Source: Thuidium tamariscinum
Lineage: Eukaryota > Streptophyta > Bryopsida > Hypnales > Thuidiaceae
Direction of reading: 5' to 3'
Assembly (NCBI GenBank): GCA_947034885.2
Contig: OX344755.2
Span: 1,924,501 to 1,988,500 of the forward strand
Length of the DNA: 64,000 nucleotides
The notes below the pieces were generated by a model. It saw nothing but the letters and a program-made list of their open reading frames with translations, was not told the DNA's origin and made no database searches. Below are positions 20,490-58,600 of this stretch, one piece after another (positions within the stretch are counted from its first letter, which is position 1; each line of letters begins with the position of its first letter). A program made the position numbers and the translations under genes.

Positions 20490-22264
20490 GACAAAAATTG
20501 TTGAAAATGATCATCTTTGAGTTATTAAAAAATCAAATGGCTCAATTTTTTTTGGAATTTTTTAATATTTTTTATAAATCAAATATCAAAGTATCTATTT
20601 TCTTAGTATTTTTCATTGTTCTCTGCTTGGTTGTAATTTTTGGAGATAAAATTTTCTAAGCCTCAATTTCAATCATATGTGATTTAGAGTGCTTTATAAG
20701 TTATACTCATTTCATTTCATTTTTAAAAATTATATTCCAAAATTCATGACATTGAAATAGGCCGTTTTGAAACAAAAAGATGCACGTGTTTCTTCCAATG
20801 ACCCATTAATTAATATGACTAGATTTCCACTCAACTATATAAATATATCATGATCTAATAACCTGGTTTTATACCTAAAAGAAGATGAAATCATCTATTT
20901 TCTATCATCCATTATTGTCTTCATTTGTTGAAAAAACACTATTAGCATATCACTTGCTCTAAAATTAATCAACTATGAAGTAGAGGATAAATTTTATATC
21001 TATCACTAGAAAATGGTGGAAATGGAAATAGAACTATTTTTTCTATTTTTTTGGGCAATAAATAAAGTGATAGTCATTAGAATCATCCATTACAAAAAAT
21101 TTGAACCTTGTAGAAGGTGGTGAGGTTGTTGCTATAGCAATGTAATTGCAAAAAATAATTTAATTTAATTTTTTTGAAATGGTGTGGCACTTCTAGTGCC
21201 ACATCAGAATGACAATTTCAAAAATATGTTATTACTTCTTTCTTAAAATTTAAAATTTTTTAAAATTGCATTTGTACCACGGTTGAAAATCAAATGAAAG
21301 TCAACAACCTTCTACAAGGTTTAGATTTTCAGTAATGAAATTCTTTATATCTATAGATATGGATGAAATGTTCAAATTTTAGATGATATTTTATTGATTT
21401 GCCCAAATTATTATACATACATTCATCTTAAACAAAGCATTTTTTTCAAAGATTTTGTAGAAAATAACAATTTTGTCCATTGCAAGAGTATCACCAATTC
21501 TTTGATCACAAAATTTTTTGTTTTGCTCACCAAAATTCATAGAATGAGGGTCAATTCTATTGTTTAGCTGAGGTGACATTGTAATTTGAGTATCATTTCC
21601 ACTGTAAATACTATTATTCTGCCCATACACTGGATTGTTGTTAAATTTATCATAATAGCTTTTATATTGTAACCATTGCAATAATAACATTCACTTCATT
21701 GACACCATAGTTGCTATCAACCTTGGAGGTTTCAATTTTCTTAAACCTAACCTCATACCATTCCCACAAGAGCAATTCAAAATGTTATAAGAATGCCATT
21801 TATGTAGTTCAAGAACTTGGAATTTACTAGTTTCTATAATAGAGTTGCTAAGTGCAACTACTGCAATTTCTTGAATTTCAATTGAATTGCAAGAATTGCA
21901 ATAAGTGAAATTAATTTCAATAATAGTTGAGGTTTTAAATAAGTACAAGATCAAGATTTAGAGTGTTGTGTTAGATTCTTGAGCTTTGTACATATAGCAA
22001 CCTAAATTTTGCAGTTTATCCATGAACTAGTTTAACTGCCAACTAACACACATGAATTAAGAATACTCATCAATTAGTTAACAATTGGGTAGTCTTTAAT
22101 GAGATCATTTTATTTACCAATTTGGTATATGCATTTCAAAAACTTTAAACTCATAAAAATACATTGATGTCTACAAGGCATTTAATTTTATTGATACCTT
22201 TGTTTATTTATTTGAGTACATTTCATAACTAGTAAAGTGGGTACACTCAAGTTTCACCCTACCT
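20490..22264. other. AT-rich stretch with two open minus-strand frames
   Basis: Two consecutive minus-strand frames, 21691-21954 and 21391-21690, are open for 87 and 99 codons and are less biased in composition than their surroundings (for example KFNNNPVYGQNNSIYSG). No family is recognised and there are no catalytic motifs. They could be a decayed element gene or chance. Confidence 0.3.
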
Positions 22265-22300
22265 AAAACCACCATCATCATTGTATGTGTAGTTGGGTAT
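22265..22300. repeat. left outer remnant of a palindromic element cut by the gypsy insertion
   Basis: The 20 bases TTGTATGTGTAGTTGGGTAT just before the gypsy 5' LTR are the inverted counterpart of sequence at 33868-33890 (ATACCCAACTGTACATCTAC). The other side of the gypsy element continues the same arm, so this is the piece left outside the insertion. Confidence 0.55.
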
Positions 22301-22566
22301 TGATACAATGAATTCTGGCATCATCCTCACTTTTTCATCCTTCCTTGTGCTTATATGCACATTACAAACTGCCAATTTGGCACCCGTTAGGCTTTTCCAA
22401 TTCTTGGCATATCAAGCAGTTAGGGAATCGTCACAGGGGAGGTTTTAGGAGGGGGAGAGGAAGGAAAGGGGGTAAGAGTAAGATTACGAGAGGGAGAAGA
22501 AAAAACTTGTATTGGTTATGATCAATGAATAAAAGTTCAAAAGGATATTAATTTCTGAGCGTTTCA
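22301..22566 (+). repeat. 5' LTR of the gypsy element
   Basis: 266 bp, starting TGATACAATGAATTCTGGCA and ending GAGCGTTTCA, so it has TG...CA ends. It repeats at 31997-33004. A late polyadenylation-type word AATAAAAG near 22526-22534 lies before the end. Confidence 0.9.
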
Positions 22567-22568
22567 TC

Positions 22569-22585
22569 TGGTTCCGTTGCCGGGA
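22569..22585 (+). promoter_or_regulatory. primer-binding site, tRNA-Asp-like
   Basis: TGGTTCCGTTGCCGGGA begins two bases after the LTR. It matches the tRNA-Asp complement TGGCGCCGTTGCCGGGG except for GC to TT at positions 4-5 and the last base. Confidence 0.75.
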
Positions 22586-22589
22586 CCTC

Positions 22590-24010
22590 GATAATTTGTT
22601 AAAGGGTGAGAGCGAGTGATCTTTTGTGAGCGATTGATTGTGAATGCCTGTTACATGCGGAGTCGGGTTGAGAGGAGTGCGCTTAGGGAACACACGGGAT
22701 GTCTGGCTGCAAGTTGTTGAGTTTCAACTAGAATATCTTGAAATTCAAATCTTTGCTTAGTTCTTCACTTGAATCTTCACTTGAATCTTCACTTGATCTT
22801 CTGTTGGCCTATCCTGTGTGGGTTCTAAAGGGCCAAAGGTAAAGGTGTGTGATAAGAAACAAGGCCTCGGACAGGTAAAACGGGATGGTCAGACCACGAG
22901 CTGAGTCGTCCAAAAGATTGGTTCCTAAACTTTCAAACTTCCGGTGACCAGTTTTAAGAAACAAGCTTCACCATGAAAACAAGCAAGTCTTGACCATGTG
23001 GGCCATTAACCCCACTTTGTTGCCCATGACACAAAATGAGGCTAGCGTTGATTTTACCCAAGTCGTTTGCAACAACAAAGATTACAAAGCTACAAGCCAC
23101 ACACACAAACACACAAGTCTTCAAAATTCCATTAACCGCAACTTTAATTTCCAAGTTGAATTTTGGGAGAGTGCCACCGTTTCTTCACAAATTTAAATAA
23201 GCTAAATGATATTTTTTTGGAAAGCTAACACAAAATTCTATTTTTCCTCCAAATTTCAAGTGATTCTAAAACACTGTCCAACTTCTATGGCCATCCAAAG
23301 TTTTGGCCTTAAGAAAAGAAAAGCTACAGACCCTCCTTCACTTCTACACTCACAACTCACTCATACAAAATCAAAATAAAATGAATGATATCTTTTTAAG
23401 AATCTAATTCAATTGTCTACACTCCCTCCAAATATCATAGCAAATCGAAAAATTGTCCGTCTTTTATAGTCGGTCGAAATCTTAGCCTTCTCTCATGAAA
23501 GGCAGCAGACCTCCATTCACTCAAACAAGAACAACTCTCAGCTCACAACTCCAAATCAAACAAGTGAGATTAGCTTAGAAACTACACACAATGATACATA
23601 AGTCCTCCAATTTTCATTTCAAAACTCTTCAAAATCACAAGACAATCCGTCCTCAAACATTTGGGTTCCTCTTAAACTCACAATGAGAAAAAAGATGAAT
23701 AGTATCCACCTTTCTCTCTACCCTATCTTCACTCTAACCACACAAACAAGTGGGTCAGACCCTAACTCACTTCCCAAACTCTTATAATAATAATTGAGCA
23801 CTTATTTGACCCCACAACTATCTCTTTATCTTTATCTTTGAAGGAAATTCACTTCAAGTTCACCTAAAAGGCAAAACATTTGAATATTTCGCTCCAACTA
23901 CTTCACAAATACAAATTTATTATAGAAAATCACTCCAAGTATCGAATGAAGAACTAAAACTCTACATACATCTAGTAGAGGTAAAAAAAACTAGAGGTCC
24001 AATCAAAATA
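22590..24010. other. leader region of the gypsy element, no coding signal
   Basis: Contains CTTCACTTGAAT repeated three times near 22765-22795 and, at about 23230-23700, two or three diverged units of roughly 230 bp. Shared words are ...CCAAATTTCA..., TTTTGGCCTTAAGAAAAG or its variants, and CAGACC(C)TCC(T)TCACT. It would form the 3' transcribed region of the antisense frame at 24011-24469. Confidence 0.4.
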
Positions 24011-24469
24011 TCACTCCATCTGCAAGAATTTGAGGATGCGTTTGATGGTAGCAATAACATAATCGGCACGATCCGCCTTAGTTAAAGGATTGACTGGCCC
24101 TTCTAACCATCGTTCGTGACCACGACTCCTTTCGATAGGCCTCACCATGCCATAATACTACTCGTCATTTGTACCTTCAAAACTTCCTTCAAATGTAACT
24201 TCATGGCTGTTGGGTTCAACATATCCAACTTGCAACAGAATCACCAATGCCCAAACGTCACGTTGAAGATTGCCGTGCCATCGATTCTCCACACGAGGTT
24301 GTTTTGGTGATCGTGATGGCCCAACTTCGTTTTCTGGTCGCCTATGTAGCAATGGAGGACTTAGTGGCAGTTGTGGCTGATCCGGCAGTTGCGATAAAGA
24401 AAATTCAAAGTCACGCTTCGGTTGAGATTCTTCATCTTGGGACTCAGAAAAACCCCTCTAATTTGACAT
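24011..24469 (-). pseudogene. antisense reading frame inside the gypsy leader (unknown protein)
   Basis: A single minus-strand frame of 153 codons runs from ATG (24469) to TGA (24011), broken by only two TAG codons, at codon 4 and at 24158-24160. The sequence looks like a protein: an acidic, Pro/Gln-rich N-terminal part with LPDQPQLPLSPPLLHRRPE, then a more ordered part with NLQRDVWALVILLQVGYVEP, then HERWLEGPVNPLTKADRADY and a basic helix VIATIKRILKFL. No catalytic motif is recognised. A TATAAAG box lies 67 bases upstream and a TGACGTCA site further up, on the same strand. Antisense genes are known in a few plant Tat-group elements; homology to those has not been shown. Confidence 0.5.
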
Positions 24470-24536
24470 AATAATTTAAATGAACAACAAAGAAGATTCA
24501 AATCAAATGTGATAAAACTTTCAAGTAAATCCTTTT

Positions 24537-24543
24537 CTTTATA
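24537..24543 (-). promoter_or_regulatory. TATA box for the antisense frame
   Basis: The minus strand reads CAACTATAAAGAAAAGG. Its position, 67 bases before the ATG at 24469, fits a start of transcription near 24510 and a leader of about 40 bases. Confidence 0.45.
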
Positions 24544-24591
24544 GTTGCTTGTAACAGCAAAGAAAAGGCGTCACCTTGAAGCCATTTCAAA

Positions 24592-24599
24592 TGACGTCA
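24592..24599. promoter_or_regulatory. TGACGTCA bZIP-type site
   Basis: A perfect palindromic TGACGTCA lies about 50 bases upstream of the antisense TATA box. Plant bZIP (TGA-class) factors bind this core; its use here is inferred. Confidence 0.35.
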
Positions 24600-25029
24600 T
24601 CTTATTTGTTACGTTACAAATGTCAAAATCTACCTAAAGTATATAGATGTATATATTTTTACATAGTGTTTACATTTGTAGCACGACAACGGTGAGACCG
24701 GATTTCCTGTTAGAGCGTCAGTTTCAAACAATAGGTTTGGGATACCGAGCGATTGCGTTTTTGTGCATGTGAGAGAATGCGCGTTCCCTTCAAAACTCTC
24801 TTCGTAAATGATCATGTAATCATACAATCATAAATCTATAGCATCTGGTTCAATGAGCGGTGATCATAAATTTGTAGTATCATAATATTACAGTTAAGGA
24901 TCGATTAACCATGTACCGATCGACAGCTCTCGCATTGTGCGCCGTTGAGCATGAGCAATGAGCTATGCAGATCAATGCATGAGCGATGCATGAACGATTA
25001 GGGATATTGAAAAAAAAATCGATGCATGA

Positions 25030-25290
25030 GCAACATGAGCTAGAGTGAAATTCCAAGCAATTCTTAGATTGTATTTTGTTGTTTTAGTGTGGAAGAGGAT
25101 TCTGAATTTGCAATCGATCGAGAGGTTTGATTGAGAGAAGTGAGTTTCAGAGGACATTGTATTGAACGATTGCAACATGGCGAGTAAGGGCGAGGGACCG
25201 TCGACTGGTATTGACCTGAGAACTATATGCAGTTGTGTGGGAGTGTGGCAACATGATCGAGTGGAGATCATTGCAAACGACCAGGGAAAC
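25030..25290 (+). pseudogene. captured 5' end of a cytosolic HSP70 gene
   Basis: From ATG at 25177, 38 codons read as the N-terminus of HSP70: [14 protein letters not shown], then a diverged GTT-loop (RTI in place of GTT), then [23 protein letters not shown]70 is a chaperone whose N-terminal ATPase domain starts with this GIDLGTT phosphate-binding loop. Here the loop is damaged, and similarity stops abruptly after GN at 25290, followed by a stop in frame. The roughly 150 bases before the ATG look like the leader of the same gene. It lies in sense orientation inside the gypsy leader and has no introns within the piece. I infer it was picked up by the element. Confidence 0.85.
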
Positions 25291-25430
25291 TTCGGCAGAT
25301 CTTTACGGACTTTAGATTAGAGCGGAAAATTTTAGCAATCAGTCCTTGGGTTTCCGGTTTCGGACTTCATCCGAGAGAGTCCTAAATAGCATTATGAGTT
25401 CATTGTGAAGCGTGAGTAAATTAAAAATGT

Positions 25431-25790
25431 GCCTTGCGCCATCTCCTCCAGTAGAGAGTTGTAGCGAAGAGGCGCTCAATCTCCTGATAATCGAAGAGGA
25501 AAGAAGGGAGGTTGAGGAGCATCTGCAGTTGCAAAATGTTTTCAATAACCTTTTCATAGAAGCAGTTGAGACGTCATTGTAAGCGCCTGCAGTCAATGAA
25601 CAGCATACGGAAAGATTGTCAGTTATCCCATTAGGTGTTGTGAACGCACCCGCAAACTACCTGGATGCCTTAACACAATTCGATGAATCGTACCCGCAAT
25701 TTTATGAAAAAGCCGGCTCTTTTGCGAAACCTTCAATTTTCTTTCAAGAACTTTAAATAGTCTTACGGGTTACGTCGTTGCCGATCGCAT
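25431..25790 (+). pseudogene. protein-like segments of unknown origin in the gypsy leader
   Basis: From 25431 a plus-strand frame reads about 55 codons with a charged helical stretch (NLLIIEEERREVEEHLQLQN) to a stop near 25580. In the same frame beyond the stop comes a segment containing VIPLGVVNAPANYLDALTQF and then YPQFYEKAGSFAKP. The composition is that of real protein, but I recognise neither. They sit between the HSP70 and LDL3 pieces and may be further captured fragments. Confidence 0.35.
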
Positions 25791-25902
25791 CCAGTCTTCT
25801 CTGATTTTAGAGGTTTGAGAATTCACGATGAGGAGCTATTGAAGAGATTATTACCGCGCTTGCTCTTGGAGTCTTGGTTGAGGCTGAGATTGAGACTAGG
25901 GA

Positions 25903-26004
25903 GCTGCGGAGCTGAACGAGGTGTCGCTACCTCATTGGAACCAAGATGATGTGTATGGAGGCTTCGGTGGCCCTCACTGTATAATCAAAGGAGGGTACAG
26001 TCAG
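25903..26004 (+). pseudogene. captured fragment of an LDL3-type lysine-specific histone demethylase (flavin amine oxidase)
   Basis: The frame reads AAELNEVSLP followed by HWNQDDVYGGFGGPHCIIKGGYSQ. This phrase (WNQDDVYGGFGG.HCMIKGGY) is the signature of the amine-oxidase domain of plant LDL3 and not of LDL1 or FLD, which have WDQDDPYEMGG-type sequence; this is known from the family. LDL3 removes methyl groups from histone H3K4. Only about 35 residues remain, with stops immediately upstream, and similarity is lost after GGYSQ. It is sense-oriented in the gypsy leader, a second host gene piece beside HSP70. Confidence 0.75.
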
Positions 26005-26125
26005 ATTTTAACGTTATTTTACTTATTTCATGAGGTAAAGCGTGAAGTGGGAGTGAGCGATAGTAACGAAGCTATCACCCGGGTAGAAAGAATCGTGATT
26101 GTCAATGCATACCTAGAAACTAAAT

Positions 26126-26491
26126 TTTGACGGCTCTTGTTCAAAAACCTTGGGATCCAGTGCTGGAGTAGTTTTGGAAAGCCCTACAAGAGTGAAAGAA
26201 GTTTACCATCAAGACTTAGGCAAGAAATTAACTTGTAACGAGTTTGAATATGCGGCTTTGATTATTGGTTTGGAGATAGCCAGGAGCAAAAATATTCAGA
26301 GGTTATAAGTCCGCGACGACTTGAAGCTGGTCTGCAATCAAGTTGTAGGGAACTGGGAGGTGTGTACAGAGAATCTGCGACCATATCACCAGGCTGTAAT
26401 CCGATTAAAGCAAGATTTCAAGTTGATGGAGATCTGCCATATACCAAGAGCAATGAATCGAGATGCCGATGAAGCAGCCCGCAATGAATAG
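26126..26491 (+). pseudogene. extra RNase H domain (aRNH type) upstream of gag
   Basis: One frame of 122 codons with a single internal stop (TAA at 26306) reads as a complete RNase H1-fold domain. It has FDGS at the start (first catalytic Asp), NEFEYAALIIGLEIA (catalytic Glu), VRDDLKLV (Asp), NQVVGNW and HIPRAMNRDADEAA (last Asp). All four acidic residues are present. RNase H removes RNA from RNA-DNA hybrids. The pattern matches the additional aRNH known in plant Tat-group Ty3 elements, where as far as I know it sits next to the RT-RNase H or integrase. Here it ends about 90 bases before gag and in addition to the usual RNase H in pol. Confidence 0.75.
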
Positions 26492-26577
26492 GTTGACTTG
26501 TATGACTACCGACCCTGCATAGAAGGTGTAAATTCTAGCTTCGTCTAGCACTCCTGTTTGGCACTTCGGTTGTCAAA

Positions 26578-27216
26578 ATGGTGGCAATACCCGTTTTCAC
26601 CGGGAAAGAGCGCAAAGATCCAGAGAAGTTTTTGCGACAGTTTAAAAAAGCATGCATGGCAAATGGCGATAGAACAGAAACAATTTGGCTTGAATTATTA
26701 CCAATACATCTCGACGACACTACTTCCTTTTGGTTTGAATGCCAAGGGGAACCAATTACAACATCACAGAGAACATTGACAACTGCATTAATCTCTAAGT
26801 TTCAAGAAAGAAAGTCATATCAAAGCCTTCTCGGAACCTTAAGTCTTATCAAGCAGAAGAATGACGAGAGCGTTTGACAGTTCAGTGAACGAGTTTGTGA
26901 ATTGCAATCTCGTATTCAACGGAGTTTAAACTACATGACCTCCAATCCAGATGATGCTCAAGCACAAATCCCAGAAAACAAAGCCGCAAGCATTAGGAGC
27001 ATCAAGACCCTAGCTCTACGCAGTTTCATCAGTGGCCTCAAGCCGGCCATCCAAGAGATAGTCGCTTGGAAAGAACCTGTGACATTTGAAAATGCACTCA
27101 TACTGGCGCAAAAGAAGGAGATGAATTTAACGAGTATTTCACAGTTACAGATCATCATGGCAGCAGTTACGTCCATAGTATCTCATTTGGTTCAAACAGC
27201 TCTTGTAAGGCTGTAA
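26578..27216 (+). pseudogene. gag (N-terminal and central part)
   Basis: The frame from ATG at 26578 has one nonsense codon (TGA 26875) and ends at 27216. It carries the retrotransposon Gag pattern: VFTGKERKDPEKFLRQFKKA near the start, a Trp-rich turn (TSFWFECQG), FQERKSYQSLL, then LRSFISGLKPAIQEIV and ENALILAQKKEM in the C-terminal third. Gag forms the particle shell. The start follows the extra RNase H domain by about 90 bases. The reading frame shifts near 27200 relative to the zinc-knuckle and protease frame. Confidence 0.8.
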
Positions 27217-27219
27217 CCA

Positions 27220-28550
27220 CTGAACTCAAAAAGGAGACGATAGATAAAGATCTCGGAATAACACAATTAATATATGATATGCACAATCTAAAATTATTTC
27301 TATTACAAGGGCAAGGAAGTGGCAATCAATCGAAAAGCCTAACATCGGAAAATCGATCAAATACACTTTGTTCAGTGCAGTTTATTACGTGTCATGGCTG
27401 TGGAAAGAGATGACACTACAAAAGTGACTGCCCCGAAGCTGAAAAGGCTCTCGTTACAACAACTGCTCGTATTGCAGAATTGAACTTGCTTCAATTAGTT
27501 GGTGACAGCAGGGTGCAAGTGATTGACCCCGAGGTGATGAATACCAAAAGAGGACGACCTGTTAAAGAGATAACAGAGATACTCAGAAAAGATGATGGTA
27601 TGGCTCAATACAAAGACAAACACCATCGACCAGAAAAAAGAGAAAGGCAATGTCGAAGGAAAATTGGAATCAATGACCTACTTTTAAGTCAGGGTCAAAG
27701 TGAATATCCGATATTACAAGATTTGGGAAAGCAATCAACAAACATTACAGTTGGGCAGCTAGTTGCGAAATGCCCAACTTTAAGACGTGAACTACGCCAA
27801 AGAATCAATGCAGGTCGATACAAGGCTGTAGTAGAAGTTAACGTTGCAGACAATGCAAAAGGAAACCTTAAATCTCCACAAGTACAAGCCACTGTAAACG
27901 GCCATGATGTGGGGGGATGTCTCCTTGATGGTGGCGCGGCAGTGAATATCATTTCATCATAGTTCATGGAAGCAACTGAATTAACACCAAATAAAGCATC
28001 GACTCTATGGCTCAAAGTTACAGACCAAAGATGTGTCAGGTCATTAGGCATGATCAGCCAAGTTCCCGTAATTATAAACAAAGTAACAGTAAAGGTTGAT
28101 TTCCACGTTTTGGATATATCAACAAGCAAGGGAGGCTATCCAATGATTCTAGGCCGCCCATGGTTGTGGCAGGTGCACACCATTAATTATTGGGAAAAAG
28201 GTAAAATAAAAATTGGGTCAGCTCGCAACCGTGTCAGTATCCAAGTCGTACCTGATCTTGATTCAAACTCTTCGGAAGGAACATCATAAGACAATGTCAC
28301 AAATGCTACAAAAGAATCCTCTTGGGGTTCGGACCTGTCTAGTAGTGATGAATCGGACGATTGTGAGGTTGAGCTATATGCTATTGATGTACTCCCACAA
28401 GTGGTGAGCCATTCTATACAGCATCTTGAGGATACTGAAGTTGTTCCATCAAGAAAAGATGAGATATTGAGCAAAGTTAAATTTGGCCCTACTCTAACCT
28501 CATCAAAACATGTTGAGCTAGAAGCATTGGTTTCCAAATTTTCTGACCTC
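27220..28550 (+). pseudogene. gag C-terminus (zinc knuckle), protease and RT lead-in
   Basis: One frame runs from about 27220 with stops at 27411 (TGA), 27960 (TAG) and after 28286 (TAA). It contains a CCHC knuckle CHGCGK(R-stop)HYKSDC damaged by the first stop. It also carries an aspartic protease with the active-site phrase CLLDGGAAVNIISS (DGGA in place of DSGA, as in many Tat elements) and flap or C-terminal part GGYPMILGRPWL. An acidic linker with SSDESDD leads into the RT region with LVSKFSDLW, cut by a MITE at 28552. Protease cleaves the Gag-Pol polyprotein. Confidence 0.8.
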
Positions 28551-28551
28551 T

Positions 28552-29286
28552 GGGTAAATGCAAGAAACACTTGTACCTTCGACCCGTCACCACCTAAGTG
28601 CTGATCTATTTTTTGGCCACAACTTTTGCATTTTTGCTCTAAATGACTCAAGATTTCTAGAAAAGGTACTCATAACTATCATACCCCTTACATAATTTTT
28701 TCATAATTTTCAAAAATAGTTTGATTTCAAAATAGTACTAGTGACTGAATGTCACACTTGGCAGTTTAGGGGTTTTTAGTCACTAAGGAGTACCTTTTTT
28801 TAATGATTTTGAGATGAAATTTGGATGAGATGGTCTTCTAGTAGTTTTACATCACTCCACATGAGGGATTTTGAAAAAAGTTATTTTTATGTGGTGTGGA
28901 AGTCTACAAAGTGAGCTTCTTTCTGCTTGAATTTTGAAACATATAAAATATTATTTTGGTGTTTTTTTTTGGTTGATGACCATCTCCATAGAGTTGTTGC
29001 AAATGGAAACTTTTTATTTTTTGTATTTACTTATTTTTTCTATTTTTCCCGAATTAAATCATGAAGGTATGTATTTTCTTGAGGTTTGGCACTTTTTTAA
29101 TTCTCCTACTTAGAGAATTTTTCTATCAATTTCCTTCGGTGAAAACCTTCATCTTAGAGGTCTATACATTGTTCATATTTTTCAAATTTTTTTCAAATTA
29201 ATTTTCTAATTTTGAAGTACTCCAAAAAAAGTCATGAGAACTATAGTAAAACGCAACAAATAGTACAAGTGTTTCTTGCATTCACC
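28552..29286. mobile_element. MITE family 2 copy A, inserted in gypsy pol
   Basis: A 735-bp non-coding unit with inverted ends GGGTAAATGCAAGAAACAC and GTGTTTCTTGCATTCACC, flanked by a 5-bp duplication CCTCT (28547-28551, 29287-29291). The frames before and after it differ by exactly the 740 bases added by element plus duplication, so pol was in frame when it landed. The copy at 32135 is about 90 percent identical by eye and inverted. The superfamily is unclear: a 5-bp duplication with ends of about 25 bp does not point cleanly to one plant group. Confidence 0.9.
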
Positions 29287-29291
29287 CCTCT

Positions 29292-30640
29292 TTGTATCGA
29301 GGCACTGTGACCTTCCAGCGATCACATTAGAAGAGTATAAAATTGAGCTATTACCTAAAACCAAACCTATACGGACCAGGCAAAAGCGCATGGCATGTGA
29401 GAAGATGAACGTGCTAAGAGCAGAATTGGACCGTTTGTTAGAAGGTGGTTTTATTACGCAAGTAAAGAACACAGAGTGGATCTCACCTGTCGGATCGTGC
29501 CCCAAAAAGGAGGTAAGTGGCGAGTGTGCGTGAATTATAAAGCTTTGAATAAGTTTACAAAAAAAATACCGTCAACCGTTACTTCACATAGATGAACTTT
29601 TAGATGAAGTATTTGATCATCAAATGGTTACATTTTGCGATGGTTATGCTGGATACCACGAAATTAAGGTGCACAAAGATAGTATATTATTTACTACTTT
29701 TACTACTCCTTGGGGTACCTTTGCATACTTAAGGATGCCTTTCGGCTTATGCAATGTTGGAGGAACATTTCAAAGGGTACAATTAAAAAATTTTGGCCCT
29801 TATATTGGCAAATTCATTCGTGTTTACCTTGACGATTTTGCTGTGTACGGGGACCGCATTAATCACGTGCAACAAGTTAAGGCCGCCTTTGAAAAATTAT
29901 GGGAGCATGGATGTTTGTTATCCCCTGAAAAATACAGGGTTGGTTTCGAAGAAGGACCACTTCTTGGTCATATAGTGTTTAGCGGAGGCATGCGCGTGGA
30001 TCCTGACAAAGTAAAACGGATAAGAGAAATGACTCCACCTACCTCACACAAACAAGTCGCTAAACTTTGGGGAATTACAATCTACCATAATCGTTTTATA
30101 CCAAATTTAGCAGGTATTGGACGCCCCATAAGCGCGTTGATCAGCAAAACTGTTCCTTTTGTTTGGAGCGATCAATGTGAGAGAGCTTTCTTATATGTCA
30201 AAGAAAGATTGGCAAGTGATCCAATAGTGAGAAATCCCATGTGGGATAAACAATTCATTGTAAATTCATTTGCTACGGAATATGCAGTTGCAGCAGTGCT
30301 AATTCAAAATGACTAGGTTGGAAGAGCACACCCTATATACTATGCCAGTAGATTAATGACTTTGTGTGAACAAAAATATACTCCTTTGGAAAAGCTTGGA
30401 GTAGCTCTATTATTTGCCTGCACAAAGTTTAAGCATTATTTGCTTTCAAGCAACCAATCTATATTGGTGCAAAGCAACATGGAGGGTTTAAAACAACTAT
30501 TGCAACAAAAAGATTCAGAAGGCCGTAGTGCTAGATTAATGGCTGCTTTACAATCTTATGACTTAGATATCAAAGCGGTAAGAGGTACCCGAGCAACTCA
30601 TGCGGGGTTATTTTTGGAATTGGGACATCCACTTATAAGC
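29292..30640 (+). pseudogene. reverse transcriptase and RNase H of the gypsy element
   Basis: After the MITE the frame continues with KTKPIRTRQKRM and FITQVKNTEWISPV (RT start). It then has a frameshifted patch around KWRVCVNYKALNKF, and from 29624 an open frame with TPWGTFAYLRMPFGLCN and the catalytic VYLDDF (YxDD). Downstream are LSPEKYRVGFEEGPLLGHIV and the connection RFIPNLAGIGRPI, then an RNase H region with YAVAAVLIQND, a stop at 30314-30316, and YTPLEKLGVALLFACTKF. RT copies the element RNA into DNA. Frameshifts near 29533-29620 and the stop prevent function. Confidence 0.9.
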
Positions 30641-30699
30641 GAATATGGGGAGCTTTCAGATGACCAAGAATGTTATTTTCTTTCCAACGAGCTGGATGT

Positions 30700-31962
30700 A
30701 AACGACACTTGGTATGGGGATATTATTAAGTACCTAAAGGACCTTGTTTTACCTACCAATTCAACTCCTCAGCAACGACGAACGATTTGCAAGCAATGTC
30801 AGATGTATACACTAATCAGTGAAGAACTCTATTGCATTGGCAAGGATGGAATTCTTAGGAGAGTGATAAATACTAAGGAAGCTAAAAGAGCACTCGAAGT
30901 TTGTCATGACGGGATTTGTAGAGGTCATTTTGCGACGAACATTACGGCAAGGAAAATTTTATAGTCTGGATTGTATTGGCCAACACTCTATTCCGACTGT
31001 AATCAATTTTGTCGCAGCTACACACGTTGCCAATTGTTTAGTAAGCAAACAGTTACATACTCAGAGCTTCATCCTATATATCCCATGGGGGTTTTCGAAA
31101 AGTAGGGAGTGGATTTTGTGGGACCCCTTCCGCTCATTGCAAAGAAGTACAAATATTTGATTGTTGCAACAAATTACTTATCCAAGTGGGCAGAAGCGGC
31201 TCCTGTAAAAAAAATGCAATAAGAAGGTCGCTGTTGAATTTATATTTAATCAAATAATTTGCAGAAATGGATGCCCTTTAGAGATCGTTATAGACCAAGG
31301 TACGCACTTTGTGAATGATTTGGTGGCAGAGTTACTTTCAAAGATGTCAATAAAACATAGACGAGCTAGTCCTTACTACCCTCAAGCTAATGGGTTAGTG
31401 GAATGAACTAATGGCATACTTGCGGGAATTATAGGGAAAGTGGTTTTAGACAAACGTAGAGAGTGGGATTTATATGTAAGTAAGGCCCTTTGGGCATATC
31501 AAACTACTTTCAAGACATCCACTAGCCATTTCAATTAGCTTTCGAATACGAAGCATTACTCCCGATTGAATTAGAGTTGACTTCGTTGCAAACTGCAATT
31601 CGACATGAACTAGGAGATAAAGAGCCAGTTCAAGCAAGAGTAGACATGCTGGAGCAATTGGACAAATCTCGACGATGGGCTCTCCAAATTTATGAAGCAG
31701 TTCAAAATAGGCGGAAAAGTAAGCACGATGGATGTAAGAAAATGATCAAATTTCAATGAGGAGATTTAGCTATGATGATTGATCATTGGTTGATCAAGCA
31801 ACATGGACAAAAATTAGACCGAAATGGCAGGGTCCATATGTTATACATCACACCTTTGCCAACTGTTCTTACAAGATTAGCACACCTGAAGGAGAAATCA
31901 TAAAGAAAATTTACAACGGTTCCAAGCTTAAACCATTCATCGAACGAGAGCATCAGTTTTAG
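30700..31962 (+). pseudogene. integrase of the gypsy element
   Basis: The zinc-binding N-terminus reads CHDGICRGHFATNITARKIL, then a stop at 30962, then GLYWPTLYSDCNQFCRSYTRC (HHCC). The DDE core has VDFVGPL, EIVIDQGTHF and SPYYPQANGLVE, with stops around MQ-stop and LVE-stop. The C-terminal part includes LDKSRRWALQIYEAVQNRRK, WQGPYVIHHTF and KLKPFIEREHQF, ending in TAG at 31960-31962. No chromodomain follows, which argues against a chromovirus. Integrase inserts the DNA copy into the chromosome. At least four stops make it dead. Confidence 0.85.
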
Positions 31963-31984
31963 TCCGCTAGCGCAATGACAGAAA

Positions 31985-31996
31985 CTGGGGAGGAGA
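31985..31996 (+). promoter_or_regulatory. polypurine tract
   Basis: ACTGGGGAGGAGA directly precedes the 3' LTR start TGATACGATG. This is the standard second-strand primer position, 23 bases after the pol stop, so there is no further gene between integrase and LTR. Confidence 0.85.
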
Positions 31997-33004
31997 TGAT
32001 ACGATGAATTCTGGCATCATCCCCATCTTTCCATCCTTCCTTGTGCTTACATGCATATTGCCAACTGCCAATTTGGCACCCGTTAGGCTTTTCCAATTCT
32101 TGGCATATCAAGCAGTTAGGAGATCATCATAGGGGGGTGAATGCAAGAAACACATGTACTATTTGTTGCGTTTTTCTATAGTACTCACGACTTTTTCTGG
32201 AGTACTTTAAAATTAGAAAATTAATTTGAAAAAATATGAAAAATATGAAAAATTTATAGACCTCTAAGATGAAGGTTTTCACCGAAGGAAATTGATAGAA
32301 AAATTCTCTAAGTAGGAGAACTTGAAAAGCGCCAAATCTCAAGAAAATATATATCTTCATGTTTTAATTCGGGAAAATTAGTAAAAATAAGTAAATACAA
32401 AAAATAAAAATTGTCCATTTGAAACAACTTTATGGAGATGGTCATCCATCAAAAAAATCACTAAAATAATACTTTATATGATTGTTTCAAAATGCAACCA
32501 GAAGGAAGCTCACTTTGTGGACTTCTACAGGTCATAAAAATAACTTTTCTCAAAATTCCTCATTTGGAGAGCTATAAGTCTATTAGAAGACCATCTCATC
32601 CAAATTTCATCTCAAAATCATTAAAAAAAGGTACTCCTTAGTGACTAAAAACCCCTAAATAGCCAAATGTGACATTCAATCACTAGTACTATTTTAGTAT
32701 GAAATTATTTTTGAAAATTATGAAAAAATTATGTAAGGTGTATAATAGTCATGAGTACCTTCTCTAGAAATCTTGAGTCATTTCGAGAAAAAATGCAAAA
32801 GTTATGGCCAAAAAACAGATCAGCACTTAGGTGGTGACGAGTCAAAGGTACAAGTGTTTCTTGCATTTACCTAGGGGAGGTTTTAGGAGGGGGAGAGGAA
32901 GGAAAGGGGGTCAGAGCAAGATTACGAGAGGGAGAAGAAAAAACTTGTATTGGTTCTAATCAATGAATAAAAGTTCTAAAGGATATTAATTTTTGAGTGT
33001 TTCA
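31997..33004 (+). repeat. 3' LTR of the gypsy element, split by a MITE
   Basis: Matches the 5' LTR from TGATACGATGAATTCTGGCA to GAGTGTTTCA, with MITE copy B inserted at 32135-32871. Without it the LTR is about 266 bp. Confidence 0.9.
32135..32871. mobile_element. MITE family 2 copy B, inserted in the gypsy 3' LTR
   Basis: 737 bp with ends GGGTGAATGCAAGAAACAC and GTGTTTCTTGCATTTACC and a 5-bp duplication TAGGG (32130-32134, 32872-32876). The 5' LTR supplies the empty site (ATCGTCACAGGGGAGG). It is inverted relative to copy A. Confidence 0.9.
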
Positions 33005-33895
33005 ATACTGAAACCTTACGAATTGCCATTTTGGGTGCTTTAAAAAACTTTGCAAAATATGGATTATAATTGGTATTTTTTTGGTAGGAATAATGATCAT
33101 TTCATCCTTATGCAATTGCAATCAAGCACACTAAATTTGAGTTTCAGAAAAATAAAACTCCATTTTTGGTAATTTAAAAAAATTTACTTTCCATGATTTT
33201 CCATGATAATTCATTGAAAAATATTGGTGATGACTTCTTTAAATTTGATTGTAGGGATATGTAGGAAACCTCTATACATACATCTTTCATATCAAAAAAT
33301 GCCCCGTTAAGTAACCCAAAAATGAGCTATGAAATGTTTAGTGAAAAGTGTCGTGTGGCAAAATTGTGAAGAAATGGATATGTCTACTTTTTAACTAGAT
33401 TTTTCTATTTGACCTTCATGTGGTAATTAATTTCGTACATTTGAGCATGAAAATATAATTAATTTGCCAAAATCTAATTAAAAAATAAACATATCCATTA
33501 GTTCAAAGTTTGGTCCTATGGCACTTTTCATTAAACTCTCCATAACTCATTTTTTGATTACTCAAGGAGGCATTTTTTTAATATGAAAGATGTGCGTATA
33601 GATGTTCCCTACATACCTATGCAACTAAATTTTAAAAATTCATCACCAATTTTTTTCAGTAAAATATTAATTTAAAAGCATGAAAATTGTCTTTGAAAAT
33701 TCACCAAAAATGAAAATTTTCTTTTTTTAAGTTGAAATTTGGTATGCATGATTGGAATTGGGTAAGATTTGAATATTAATTTTGTAGGAAAACAATTCCA
33801 TTATATTTATATATTATGTACAAATCTTTGAACGCCTCAAATAGGCAGTTTGTAAGATTCTATACCCAACTGTACATCTACAAAATCACTATGTA
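33005..33895. mobile_element. long palindromic (foldback-like) element, arms about 430 bp
   Basis: The left arm (33005 to about 33425) and right arm (about 33440-33895) are inverted copies along their whole length. Examples are GAAACCTTACGAATTGCC against GGCAGTTTGTAAGATTC, ATTGGTGATGA against TCATCACCAAT, and GGATATGTCTACTTTTTAAC against its counterpart near 33480. Centre near 33430. The outer 20 bases of the left arm lie on the other side of the gypsy element at 22281-22300. Non-coding. Confidence 0.75.
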
Positions 33896-47347: not shown

Positions 47348-47454
47348 TCGTCAGTCGGTGAATCCCGCAGCTAGTCGATCGTAGCTGTAGATCGAATACA
47401 GTCCGATTTCGATCGTTATCAGTGCAGATTTGACTAGTACCTACACTTCCGACA

Positions 47455-50400
47455 ATGGGCTCGTTAACCCAACTCGCCGTCTCCCCAAAGGCCAAGTCTT
47501 TGGAGCGCGTGATGTCGATGAACGGCGGCCACGGCGAGTGCAGCTACGACCGCATGTCGGTAGTGCAAGCCTACGCGCTTCAAATTCTACAACCCTTCCT
47601 CACCGACGCCGTGCACATCATGAGCTTGCCGGCGGCCCCTTCCCCTCTCCGCATCGCCGATTTCGGAAGCGCCACAGGTCGAAACGCCTTCGCGTACGTG
47701 GATTTCCTGGTGAGGTGCATGCGGAAGGAGTATGAAGGGAAAACTCCGGGGGTGATGCCGGAGGTGCAGGCTTTTTTCAATGATCTACCCGGGAACGATT
47801 TCAACACTATGTTTGGCTTGTTGCCGCCCGTGAAGGGGGTGGACGTGGAGGAGCAAGAGTTCGGGAGAGAGTACTTTGCGGCAGGCGTGGCGGGGTCGTT
47901 TTATGGAAGGTTGTTTCCGAAGAACAGCTTGCACTTCGCCATTTGCATGCACTGCTTGCATTGGATTTCTCAGGTGGGAATTTGGCCCCGGCCCTTTTCA
48001 TTGACGTTGCTATTTTTAAAGTAAGATAATGTTTCGGAGTTGAGCATAGCGAGGTGACGTACGTGAGCATTATCTTATTTAATGGAGCTCTCACAAGCAT
48101 CCCGAGGATGGGAAGAGGGGCTGCACGTGAGAGTACGTGGGAGCAAGCTTCCCTCGGTGTGTGTGAAATAATAAAAGTCTCTGGAACACAATCTAATTAA
48201 CTCTAATTTACATTAAGCTAATGGTTTTCAGATTTTCAAAAAATATATGCTCGGAATCTCAATCCCTCGAAACGTCTCACCAAAGTCTCGGCCATGGACT
48301 GAATTAATGCGTTAAATTGGAATCTGGGATGTTTAAGGGTTAATATTTAAAAGTACCGGGTAACTGCAACTTGTTTGTTCGCAAGAAGAAGAAAAGAGGG
48401 CAGGAGTAAGATAATTGATGTCCTGGAATGACACCATGTACCCGTAAATAATATTTTAATTGAGCGTGATACTGCTCCAAGTGACACCTAGCTAGCTAAC
48501 GTTTGTGTTGTTTAGATTGAGGTTTGGAGTATAAACAAACCCTGGGCCGGACCGTGTACGTCATAGAATATAGATTTGAAATCCCACGATTGATAAGCTT
48601 GCAATGTCATACGTGCCAGAAATTTGGTCCATTTTGTCAGGCCTATTGGAAACACCAGACAAATCCTACAGTACAGGGAACACCCTGCGTCGGGTGGCCC
48701 GGTACACTGCAGAGTACGCAGTGTCCTTCGCCGTGTTCCGTCTGTAGTGAAATTTCTGCCAGTGCCCTCTGAAGTATAATGTCGCCAGAATCAAACAAAG
48801 GAATAAGAAACGTCACTCGTACAGGAAACCCAAAAGTACTCTAACATCGACCGAGAGCTAGCTGCATCAATGATTTGCAAGCATGAAGTCAATCAGATGA
48901 ATCACGAATGCTGTTCACATGGAGTTAGAATTTGATCACAATGGAGAGATCCAGTTACGTCACCTTACATTGGACATGGCCGTGAGGGGAATTCCCACTA
49001 AATTAGCAACTTTTCAGTTTGATTTCAAACATTCGCACTATCGTACAAATCTCAAATCTCAAATCTATACCTGTCCTGTTTATCGAACAAAAATCAAACC
49101 AGTTGCGCATCTCAGTTTTGGCCATAGACAAGTTTTTAATGTAATTGAAATTGGCTTGAGTTCATAGTGAACTCACAGAGAGAAGTCAATGTGCTTCATG
49201 TTAAGTATCTGTATACTGTCTGACAACGTGGGCGATTGTAAATGATGCAATTATTTGCAGGTACCATCGGCAGTGACAGACCCGGCGTCGGAGTTGTACA
49301 ACCGTAACTCCTGCTGGATCATGGGTGGCAAGCCCGCCATAGCCCAGGCATTCGCGGACCAGAGTGAGATCGACTTCCGGAACTTCCTGCACTGCCGTGC
49401 CACGGAGCTCGCCCCCGGAGGCATCCTGCTTTGCTTCCTGTCCGGACGGGCGGATCTCGCCGACCCCACCAACCAGACCATCCCGGAACGGCGACACCGC
49501 TTTCTCGCCGGACACGACTTCGAAAGCACCTGGGACGACCTCATCGCCGAGGTACGTAGGGATTGCTTGCATTCCTTCTTCAGCTAGGTACTGCTTGAAT
49601 GTCTGAACATTTGCATTCAAACGAATCTGGCATCCTCTCGGGGAGATCTCTGTACACACTCTCCATGGATCTCCAGTAAGATCATTCTGTTTTCAGTGCA
49701 AAGGAGGGTTCCAGAGCTTAAAATTTATTAGAATTCGCATCTTTTGAAGGCAATAGAGTTAAGTGTAAAGGAAACCCGAGTTTGAAACAGGGGTCAGAGG
49801 GAGGTATAACTGAGAATACTAGAAATGAAACAGGGCACCAAACTCCTTTGGACCTCAATTTTGGTGCTCCAAGGAGTTTGGTCCTGCGTTTTTCCCAAAC
49901 TCCGGCTCCTGGTCCGGCATTCCACTCACTTTACACTTAATGAGTTCCAAAATTTTATTCCAGATGCATAGTTGAACATTATGAAGATTTTTGGTGCGAG
50001 ATTCGTTGAAATTAATGGGTAATTTCAGAGCATCGAAGGTTGTCAAATTCACTTGTTTCGAGGACATTGAGTTCACAATATTAGTTTCCAGGTGGATAGA
50101 TCAGGTGCAGAAGTGCCAATTTCTTGAATCTTTGCCATTTTTAACGGATAGATAGTTTAAGGTCAACATAAGACATGTTCAATTGAATTTGAGGATTTCT
50201 TTTTTGACGTAGGTACTTGAATCCAGTTCGAGTGTTTTACTACGACTCCCTCATTTTCTCACGTTCTCTCATATTGAAACATTGTGCTTCAAATTATAGA
50301 TAGTTACAAATTCTCGATAATCATTCTCAGTCGTACGTTCTAGCGTTTGTGTGATGATTATTTTACATCAACTACAGCGTGTTTCAATTTTCAAAGCGTC

Positions 50401-51007
50401 AAATTGTGCACTTAAATCTTTTAAGACAAAGACTAGTCCAGATCGATCGATCGGAGGTACCACACAGGCGCCTATCTCCAGCAAACTGTGCCATGTAAAG
50501 AAGTCGATGCCCTGTATCATAACCGAGAATGTTGTCACTGAAACTGTAGCTCTGTAACTTATGATTTCAGACCCAATATCTGATATTGACAGTGCACACC
50601 CACCTCGTACGCAGGGCATCATTACGGCGGAGACTCGCGACTCCTTCAACCTCCCGATCTACATCCCTCACGTAGAAGAGGTGCGCGCCTCGATCTCCGC
50701 CACTGGGAGCTTCGAGATCCTCCGCCTGGAGCTTCTGGAGGAGGTGGCTTTGTACCCGGAGGACGCTCGGTTGCAGATGGTGCAGCACCCCAGCCAGTGC
50801 GCCAAGTTTTACTCCTCGTGGGTGCGCGCCATCGTGGAGCCCCTCATGGCCGTGCACATGGGCGCAGCCGCCACGAAAGCATGGTTTGTGCGGTACGAGC
50901 GGCGCCTGCTTGCGAGGTGCAGGGGGATGCAAGGACGAAGGGAGGAGATGGAAGAGTATAAGTTCCTCACCGCCGACTTCCTGCTGATCGTCTTGAAGAA
51001 GAAGTAG
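47455..51007 (+). CDS. SABATH family S-adenosylmethionine-dependent methyltransferase
   Basis: Three exons, 47455-47973, 49261-49551 and 50615-51007, join in phase 0 with GT-AG introns (1,287 and 1,063 bp) to encode 400 residues, the usual family length. SABATH enzymes move methyl from SAM to carboxyl groups (salicylate, jasmonate, IAA, farnesoate) or, in some mosses, thiols. Seen in order: MNGGHGECSYDRMSVVQ (22-38, substrate/SAM entry), IADFGSATGRNAF (67-79, SAM motif I), FNDLPGNDFN (108-117), SFYGRLFPKNSLHF (148-161) and CLHWIS (167-172) with the carboxyl-binding His-Trp pair. The third exon ends EYKFLTADFLLIVLKKK. The usual Asn in YxxNS is Met here, and SSG is SATG. The substrate cannot be told. 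Probably cytosolic, since there is no signal peptide. Codons are GC-rich. Confidence 0.93.
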
Positions 51008-55656: not shown

Positions 55657-58600
55657 TCAAGGGAATGTCGTGAACTCAAGGACTTTTAAAACGATCTCCC
55701 AGCCGGTTGGAATCTGCGACACGAAAAGCAGCAGATTGATAGCGTTCAAGGCGATGTGGAGACTTCTGGCCGTGTCGTTTCCTTTCTGCATTAGAGGCAC
55801 GAGTGACGCTGCAAGAGCCCAGAGTACCGTGATTCCTGCAGTTCAAATCCCAAAAGCCATGAGCAAATCACTTGGACGTTCTCAAACAAGTACCATCCCA
55901 GATGACTACAATATGGCTGAAATACCAGGTACCCAAATTTTTCAGTCATTCTTGTTGGCAATTACAATAAGATTTCCAATGCACTGAAGTATGCCTTGTT
56001 CGGATATTCTATGCAAAAGTTCGGATGGTTCCAAGTGTTTAGGTAGATAATCTAAAAGCAACACAAGGTTTCATGTCAAACGTGTACATGAATTCTCAAA
56101 TTCAATACGGGCTCATAGTGCAAGATTTTAGGGTGTCACATTTAGGTCCTTGTTGGAATAAGATACCTCTACCTTAAAGGCCACTCAAGGTTGCACAAGT
56201 CAAAGCAACGAGATTGAGATCACGAGAAATCCTACACCTCGATTGGTGCAAAAATATTTTAAATTCAGTCTACCTCATTTTGAGTTCAAAATCAATTTTG
56301 CACTGGTTCAAGTACTAAGGACGCACTTATAAGGCTTCCATATGGTAAAGTATATGAAATAGCAAGGTTCTGAATCCACCTCGTTGAGGTGGGTTGGACA
56401 CTTGTTACCTCAAATACATCACAAATGACATGGACTATTCTAAGACTACTAACTCACCCCCAGTTGAATATAATTTCGGTTCCAAATTCTATGCTTCGAC
56501 CTGTGCAATCTGAAGCAGCCCTAAGCTAAAAGATGTGGAAAACAAGGCATAATAATACGTTGAGTAAGATTTGAGCGAAAATTAAAGAGTCAGTGTAAGC
56601 AAAACCATACCTACGCCGGCGTAAAGATGAGGTCCTGGGAAGAGCTTCCCTGTTCGTAAGTATGTATTCGTTGCTCCATAGACGGAAAACGAAACACCAG
56701 CGCCAAGCAAGATGGCACCCCAGTTGAAGTGACGATCTTTATATCCTCCTTTCACAAGGGCCTTCCTGACCTGCATCACATACATTCTTTAGCACCCTTT
56801 CCAATGAGAATCAGAATGCATATCACATAGTTCTAACGTGGCTAGCTTCTGCTTGATTGCTTGGCATTCTAACCTTGAGTTTTACAAAGCTAACATTCTT
56901 CTACTCTCATACTGGAGCTCCTATTGGTTATTTGCTTTGCATTTAACTCCTAATGGAACAAGGATACAAGAATTCATAGATTAAAAATGACCAACTCGAT
57001 TGTCATATTGTAAAGAACATATTCAAATTATGGCCAAATATTAAATCACTAGAATTGACGAAAATCGTTGCCGTATTGGTAAAAAATAAACAAATTGAAC
57101 ACAAGAAAATCTTCAAGAGTGCTAAAAAGAGCACATCACCCCACTTCAGGCTACCTCAGGCTTGTTGGTCCTTTAGGGGTTCATGACAACATAGCAACTC
57201 AACAAATTTTTATACCTCTGTGAGCTCTTTGATTTGATTATTAATCGGTGAATCGATGGCTTGACCCTCGGCTGCCACCGGCACCTGCTTCTTCAATGCG
57301 TTGATCTCATCTTGAACCGTGCGAACACGGCGCCATTGCCAGCCCAGGAATCCAGCATATCCGGTAGAGAAGAAGAGGATCAGCATCACCACAGGGTGCA
57401 GCAGGGACAAAGTGCGGCCCTCCAGAATCCCATACTCACCACCAGCCGCATACGCATCCTGCTCAAAATCCGTTTCATAGATATCAGTAAGGTAGAAAAC
57501 ATTCTTTCCTTCTAATTAACCCCTACAGGACGAAGGATTCCAGGATTAAAAAGGGCCAATACAGTTGCTCATACTGTGAAAATAATAGAATTCAGATGAG
57601 GCCATATTTTATATCACGAGAATCGGTGAAGAGCAATAGAAGTGTTGGTTAGAAAAGAAACCAGAGTGAAACGAAAAAAACAGTTGACTGATGACCTACT
57701 CAAACTGGCTCGAAATTGGACATCTTGGTCCTTTCAGGGCTAAGCATTCTACCCCGTGCTTTGGAGATATCACTTCGGCTACTACAAGCCCAGACTCTCT
57801 TGAGCTCAACTTGAGTTAATTTTCTCACTCAAATGTCTTATATGATCTCTTATGCAATCATTCAAACACAGGGAAGTCATGCAGACCAATATTGAAGGGA
57901 GAGTACACAACCCCTAGTACCAATTCGAATATGCGTGGCCATCGACAAATTTTACCAAGTCGTAATTTGTTAAACCCAATGGTTGTCAATTAAAGACCAA
58001 CCAAGTGTTAATTGGCAGAGACGAGTTGCTATTAGTAACAGGGGTCAGGCAATAGGTGATAGAATCAGTATTCTAATACTATATGGCATTCTCTACCTTG
58101 CCCACACGAATCCAAGCATGAATCTCAACACTTCCCAACCACAAACACAGTCAAAAACAATGGCACAAGCCACAGGAGCACTCACAATGCAAAACACAAA
58201 TTCCAGAAAATGTAGAAGCAGTAGCAATAGTTGTAAGGAAACCTGGACAGTAAGGAGGAAAGGGCTCAAGCTCGCTGTAGCCGTAAGCAAGGTGCGTTGC
58301 AAGAAGAAGCTCCCATCAGTATCCGACTTTACTTGGATTTCAGGAACATCGTCGTTCTCGAGATTCTTGTTGTTGGACTTCGATAAAGACGCATGCGTCT
58401 TGACAAGCCTTACATTTGTTTGAATTCCTTGGTGTGACCTTGTGAAAGAGGAACGCAAACTCGGTCTCAGATTTCCTATCGCAGCTGTGACCTGTGGATC
58501 CCCAACAAACGCTAACTCCCATCAGACACCGATCGAAATGGAACAGAAACCCTCTCATGAAGTAGCATTGCACTTAAATCTACTGGAATTGTATCAGAAA

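Follow-up and report, generated by a model that had tools for sequence, protein, structure and literature searches.

How fragments of unrelated host genes come to lie inside a single LTR retrotransposon is the question raised by positions 25030-26004 of the window, that is, the whole 64,000-nucleotide stretch of Thuidium tamariscinum DNA analysed here. An earlier note had read this interval as part of a gypsy element carrying pieces of two host genes, HSP70 and an LDL3 demethylase. The interval was located inside an LTR element with LTRs at 22301-22566 and 31997-33004, for which related copies were compared at C10:1.60M (L041), C3:43.90M (L043), C3:31.3M (L042) and C3:16.855M (L056, a second family).

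Organization and age of the element

The features of the window copy were as follows.

22301..22566, plus strand: 5' LTR, TG...CA
22569-22587: primer site, directly after the 5' LTR
22658..24694, no strand assigned: nested high-copy repeat of about 2.03 kb, apart from the captured pieces; not in L042
24695..24944, plus strand: element leader, common to L042, L041 and a C6 locus
25038..25290, plus strand: host HSP70 piece, the first 38 codons (ATG at 25177) preceded by a portion of the 5' leader; window copy only
25343..25799, plus strand: remnant of an element ORF 5' of RNase H; also in L042, partly in L041 and L043
25800..25901, plus strand: third host piece, 80% identical to the 5' leader of an ARMT1-like gene at C7:2.42M; L042 has it as well
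25903..26004, plus strand: host LDL3 piece, 34 codons from within one exon; also in L041 and L043
26005..26104, plus strand: linker between the LDL3 piece and RNase H, common to the window, L041 and L043; not in L056
26105..26488, plus strand: archaeal-type (additional) RNase H ORF, with two in-frame stops in the window copy
26539..28604, plus strand: gag to protease zone, stop-broken; domains by eye
29549..30964, plus strand: reverse transcriptase and native RNase H, their two frames separated by one stop
31997..33004, plus strand: 3' LTR, two halves (31997-32135 and 32873-33004) flanking a nested insert

The paired LTRs enclosed a gag-pol region with reverse transcriptase, as in Ty3-type LTR retrotransposons; pol gave Pfam matches to RVT_1 (E 1.9e-11) and RT_RNaseH, and no Pfam match was obtained with the two pieces scanned from the gag-protease zone. 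The primer site resembles what we take to be a tRNA-Asp site. The RNase H ORF upstream of gag, which the earlier note had overlooked, matched RVT_3 (Pfam, E 2e-19 in the window, 2.4e-21 for the L041 reading) and retained, by eye, the four catalytic residues. The HSP70 ATG was considered as a start for this ORF and rejected, since stops intervene and the ORF possesses its own ATG. Compared by eye with the catalytic motif, native RNase H had lost three of four catalytic positions in the window and two of four in both L041 and L043; such degeneration is a feature of the layout termed Tat structure #4 (see below). By these sequence features the element is a Ty3-type Tat element, old and decayed, in which an additional RNase H precedes gag. 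Of 4087 candidates in a protein search with the upstream ORF plus RNase H, one matched, a protein of sesame that has an RNase H domain; viral contigs scanned with the reverse transcriptase and RNase H contained no relative, and Rfam at gathering thresholds gave no match over the whole window.

The two LTRs of the window copy differed at 20 of 266 sites, 16 of them transitions (K2P 0.080, or about 4% change per LTR), which marks this copy as old. The corresponding distances were 0.023 in L041, 0.0076 in L043 (2 of 264 sites) and 0.133 in L042. As read by eye, the flanking tetranucleotides differed in the window (GTAT/ATAC) and were alike in L041 (GTAC/GTAC), L043 (GTAG/GTAG) and L042 (GTAC/GTAC).

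The repeat nested at 22658-24694 had 777 candidate places in the genome, of which 40 were scored, and is probably a DNA transposon, short inverted ends being seen by eye in 10 copies; its broken antisense ORF had no Pfam match. An inverted pair of inserts of about 750 bases, 90% alike and with inverted ends, occupied 28547-29294 and 32128-32877, and pieces related to them were observed near 39.3k, 40.8k, 43k and 44.5k of the window. Elsewhere in the window, a host gene with several exons that belongs to the SAM-dependent carboxyl methyltransferases (PF03492) was present at 47434-51004, and readings matched DUF4079 (57210-57515) and glyoxalase (62560-62871). The minus strand of 1-1100 held the gag end of another, distant element. 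The earlier note had used 1-1076 as a related, cargo-free copy, for which it is unsuitable: no DNA match to the element was found there, and amino-acid matches of 32-52% were confined to the gag-protease zone. As an empty site it was rejected, belonging to a different family with a distant relationship.

Host gene pieces in the window copy

A 47-residue reading from 25177 matched HSP70 in Pfam (E 9.1e-6) and HSP70 chains in PDB (best E 2.8e-11). In the same genome (363 Mb in 19 contigs searched), positions 25038-25289 were 96% identical to C4:4731700-4731950 (E 3.4e-110), in a locus that encodes a full HSP70 (Pfam E 3.4e-259); compared directly, the piece was 95.6% identical to the donor (L039:3701-3951). 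The presence of the HSP70 leader and first 38 codons in sense, claimed previously, is thus far beyond chance, but the similarity begins at 25038 rather than 25030. It ended sharply at both edges of the piece, and a genome search with 25030-25300 returned the window and the HSP70 gene and nothing else (2 of 2 candidates scored). Over 252 columns, piece and gene differed by one indel and 10 substitutions, every one of the latter a transition. Four of the six changed codons were non-synonymous, which fits passenger status, and no sign of protein-level constraint was observed. Since the piece begins about 100 nt downstream of a TATA-like box of the donor (by eye), it seems to lie within the transcribed part, without the promoter. 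The HSP70 coding region is intronless, so that capture from DNA and capture from RNA are indistinguishable for this piece. The change of about 4% per LTR matches the 10 differences in about 251 positions of the piece, and capture near the time of insertion is therefore suggested.

Positions 25903-26004 matched plant LDL3 proteins (11 of 16 candidates with E<=10, best 3.5e-13), Physcomitrium LDL3 being among those named, and 25903-26002 were 96% identical over 100 bases, with four differences, to C2:20565757-20565856 (L040:4258-4357). The protein matches together with the identity to the host gene place this segment, in sense orientation, far beyond chance as well, and parental genes for both pieces (HSP70 on C4, LDL3 on C2) were thus recovered from the same genome. 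Breakpoints at exon junctions, which the earlier note had suggested looking for, were not observed: both pieces end within exons, HSP70 being encoded in a single open frame and the LDL3 segment falling inside a long open exon.

The LDL3 piece was present at three loci, the window, L041 and L043, with an identical right edge. In L041 it starts at the equivalent of about 25916, and in L043 it is in two parts around an interruption. Its presence in three copies at three loci indicates that it was carried by retrotransposition. Other copies with the cargo, which the earlier note had proposed looking for, were found for LDL3 (L041 and L043) and not for HSP70, present in the window only. That the HSP70 junction occurs once would be compatible with an assembly chimera or an ordinary genomic segment; such an origin is, however, practically negligible in probability, since the pieces are diverged from their donors by about 4%, as age predicts, instead of being identical, and LDL3 ends at the same right edge at three loci.

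The third piece (25800..25901) derives from a host gene at L044, for which five readings were scanned and three gave ARMT1-like matches (best E 2e-6); the likely ATG of this gene is downstream of the matched stretch. More of this leader was held by L042, namely 217 bases at 90% and two shorter pieces, and a 166-base GT..AG segment was lacking between the first two leader pieces there, the placement of the gap between L042 and L044 being ambiguous. In L042, which is a deleted relative, the ARMT1-like leader piece bridges an internal deletion, pol resuming immediately after it at the equivalent of 31099. Occurrence at two loci indicates that the ARMT1-like piece, too, passed through retrotransposition.

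No clear host donor was found for window positions 24694-25040, and a genome search for a donor of the element leader (24695-24944) found none. The linker (26005-26104), for which no donor was found, may be one more captured piece.

Donors in related copies and rival routes

The extent of the subfamily was defined with the query 26005-28546, for which all 23 candidates were scored, giving 27 rows. Four rows came from three copies (91-100%) and the other 23 were relatives at 65-78%; L043 and L041 were the sole loci beside the window at 91-92%. As a control, this gag-protease query showed no short host match of high identity among the 27 rows. The group thus consists of three copies (window, L041 and L043) plus the deleted relative L042, and all four carry host pieces, which are largely different.

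In L043, the interruption within LDL3 contained LSU rRNA sequence in element sense (RF02543, 58.9 bits against a cut-off of 50, E 9.6e-13); a genome search with this stretch gave one other place (61 of 74 bases, 90%), and a nuclear rDNA donor was not seen in it. Sequence from upstream of a Ras-family gene that looked ROP-like by eye was also present in the L043 leader, as two stretches (38 bases at 95% and 93 bases at 92%), together with 43 bases identical to a place some 1.8 kb before a trehalose-phosphatase-like frame. In the L041 leader, two exons of one gene were fused without the 404-base GT..AG intron (94.5% and 85.7%), and there were 69 bases spanning the stop (3' end) of an ORF at C8:17.92M and 64 bases of a histone H1 leader, the right end of which was also in L043 (24 bases, 3 differences). 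A 115-base piece of L041 matched five places, the two compared having a longer repeat in common, and was accordingly counted as a repeat and not a gene. L041 further had a 272-base stretch, not in the window, between TAGC direct repeats; Rfam gave no match in L041:4100-6000 at E<=0.1. The main leader of L042 (951 bases) had no clear host donor.

In the second family, L056 possessed the RNase H ORF but lacked both LDL3 and the linker at the corresponding position, and so shows the state without that insertion. Its leader carried a piece from C9:10.745M (92% over 237 columns) that the two sister copies lacked; a further 69 bases, 90% identical to C7:4.266M, fell in a zone common with a sister. 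A 306-base stretch of the sister family copy L059 matched element copies only and had no clear host donor.

Altogether 12 donors were counted, 10 across the four loci of the group and the others in L056. Orientation was sense for all eight donors oriented by gene, intron or Rfam: HSP70, LDL3, ARMT1-like, ROP-like, trehalose-phosphatase (tentatively, being 1.8 kb from the ATG), LSU rRNA, the C8:0.998M gene and H1. The C8:17.92M piece was sense by its ORF, which had no Pfam match and one database relative (1 of 23 matches). The 115-base repeat and the C9:10.745M and C7:4.266M donors stand outside the named and oriented set. Physcomitrium and Ceratodon were among the best named relatives of the protein matches. 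According to PMC7264820, gene sequences transduced by retrotransposons usually run in the gag-pol sense. Two introns were lost at GT-AG borders, the 404-base one in L041 and the 166-base one in L042.

A count of two host genes is therefore too low, three being present in the window copy and ten donors over the four loci. The claim of host gene capture by an LTR element itself held: donors lie elsewhere, unrelated host gene pieces, spliced in two cases and in sense for all eight oriented donors, lie between LTRs, LDL3 was carried by transposition to three loci, and relatives without pieces exist (L042 without HSP70, L056 without LDL3).

Gene pieces are frequent in DNA transposons, as stated in PMC13317346, and a 2-kb DNA repeat is indeed nested at 22658-24694, so that insertion of a Pack-MULE- or Helitron-like transposon with gene pieces into the LTR element was considered. 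That repeat, however, stops before the pieces, and none of the 25 longest of 51 inverted-repeat pairs in 22200-33100 brackets 25038-25290 or 25800-26004. The two introns missing at their borders, the uniform sense of the eight oriented pieces, the several insertion sites and the variation of pieces among copies also speak against this route, which is very improbable.

Somewhat less improbable, though still unlikely, is filling of breaks in chromosomal copies after integration, with RNA or cDNA as the patch. HSP70 and several sibling pieces are single-copy, and short overlaps, which repair also leaves, were seen by eye at junctions: GACG common to LDL3 and rRNA and a 5-base overlap between the trehalose-phosphatase and ROP-like pieces in L043, and, in L041, one of 2 bases where the C8:17.92M and H1 pieces meet. 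LDL3, present at three loci, and the ARMT1-like piece, present at two, nevertheless passed through retrotransposition. Moreover, the L043 LTRs differ at 2 of 264 sites versus about 8% for the ROP-like piece (92% over 93), indicating that this piece predates insertion if C5:13.84M is its true donor.

Probable template switching and comparison with known systems

The host pieces were most probably acquired by repeated template switching of reverse transcriptase onto co-packaged cellular RNAs, a reading to which we assign a probability of about 0.83 for these four loci of one genome and which was drawn from sequence comparison. While copying element RNA, reverse transcriptase would jump to a cellular RNA in the same particle, copy between a few dozen and a few hundred bases, then return to the element RNA; co-packaging, the enzyme responsible and the order within a cycle are what we infer. 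The templates would have been HSP70, LDL3 and ARMT1-like mRNAs for the window, and ROP-like GTPase, trehalose-phosphatase, histone H1 and LSU rRNA for the siblings. In L042, the enzyme may have left the element RNA in pol, copied host mRNA and resumed further upstream, thereby producing the deletion.

LDL3 was presumably captured early, before the three copies split. The ARMT1-like piece would have been taken up in an L042-like relative and have reached the LDL3 lineage when copying switched from one element RNA to another near 25902, and HSP70 would have come last, at or shortly before the final insertion, in the window copy only. Bins 25500-25900 of the window were 83.5-84.2% identical to L042 versus 71.2-76.2% to L041 and L043, and bins 26100-31900 were 85.5-97.5% identical to L041 and L043. 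This mosaic of L042-like and L041/L043-like bins suggests that switching took place between element RNAs too. The captured pieces look like passengers, with no promoter taken.

A link of dual RNase H to strand transfer has been suggested (PMC10508981). It is conceivable, although we consider it doubtful, that moss Tat elements with extra RNase H are habitual template switchers, their leaders taking in new pieces of any RNAs in the particle round after round, the leader of each copy thereby recording particle RNA content, and the extra RNase H raising the switching rate.

The group provides a small, datable series of RNA captures with donors, piece-free relatives and spliced junctions. Template switching onto packaged host RNA would thereby be checkable event by event, and the proposal that additional RNase H raises strand transfer becomes directly testable. 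An rRNA piece beside mRNA pieces would point to non-selective packaging.

Structure #4, in which a separate ORF 5' of gag encodes RNase H, has been described in four mosses and one Selaginella (PMC10508981). The present element is similar to these moss Tat B elements in its archaeal-type RNase H ORF 5' of gag and partly degenerate native RNase H, a likeness drawn from layout; host-gene leader pieces, however, were not described there. In maize Bs1, one LTR element carries segments of three unrelated host genes, ascribed to transduction of cellular sequences (PMC13317346; PMC7264820). As in Bs1, pieces of unrelated host genes lie inside one plant LTR element. In contrast to Bs1, the pieces of the present small group vary largely from copy to copy and comprise LSU rRNA as well as spliced leaders; the element belongs to the Tat type with extra RNase H, and no hybrid protein is indicated. 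For Veju and BARE-2, PMC13317346 reports abnormal template switching, foreign sequence entering by a switch between packaged RNAs; there the switches involved an unknown sequence and another retrotransposon, versus a series of cellular RNAs here. In the chimeric retropseudogenes of Magnaporthe, as summarized in PMC2104539, template jumps fuse DNA copies of different transcripts, as would be the case here, but through LINE-type reverse transcription and as stand-alone pseudogenes, whereas the present pieces lie inside an LTR element. Among the titles and abstract openings covered, most subscription journals lying outside that coverage, none concerned host RNAs patched copy by copy into an LTR element of a moss. 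It is already known that a single LTR element can capture several genes; a serial patchwork that differs between copies and includes pieces of spliced mRNA and of rRNA, in an element with extra RNase H, is an unusual variant of such capture.
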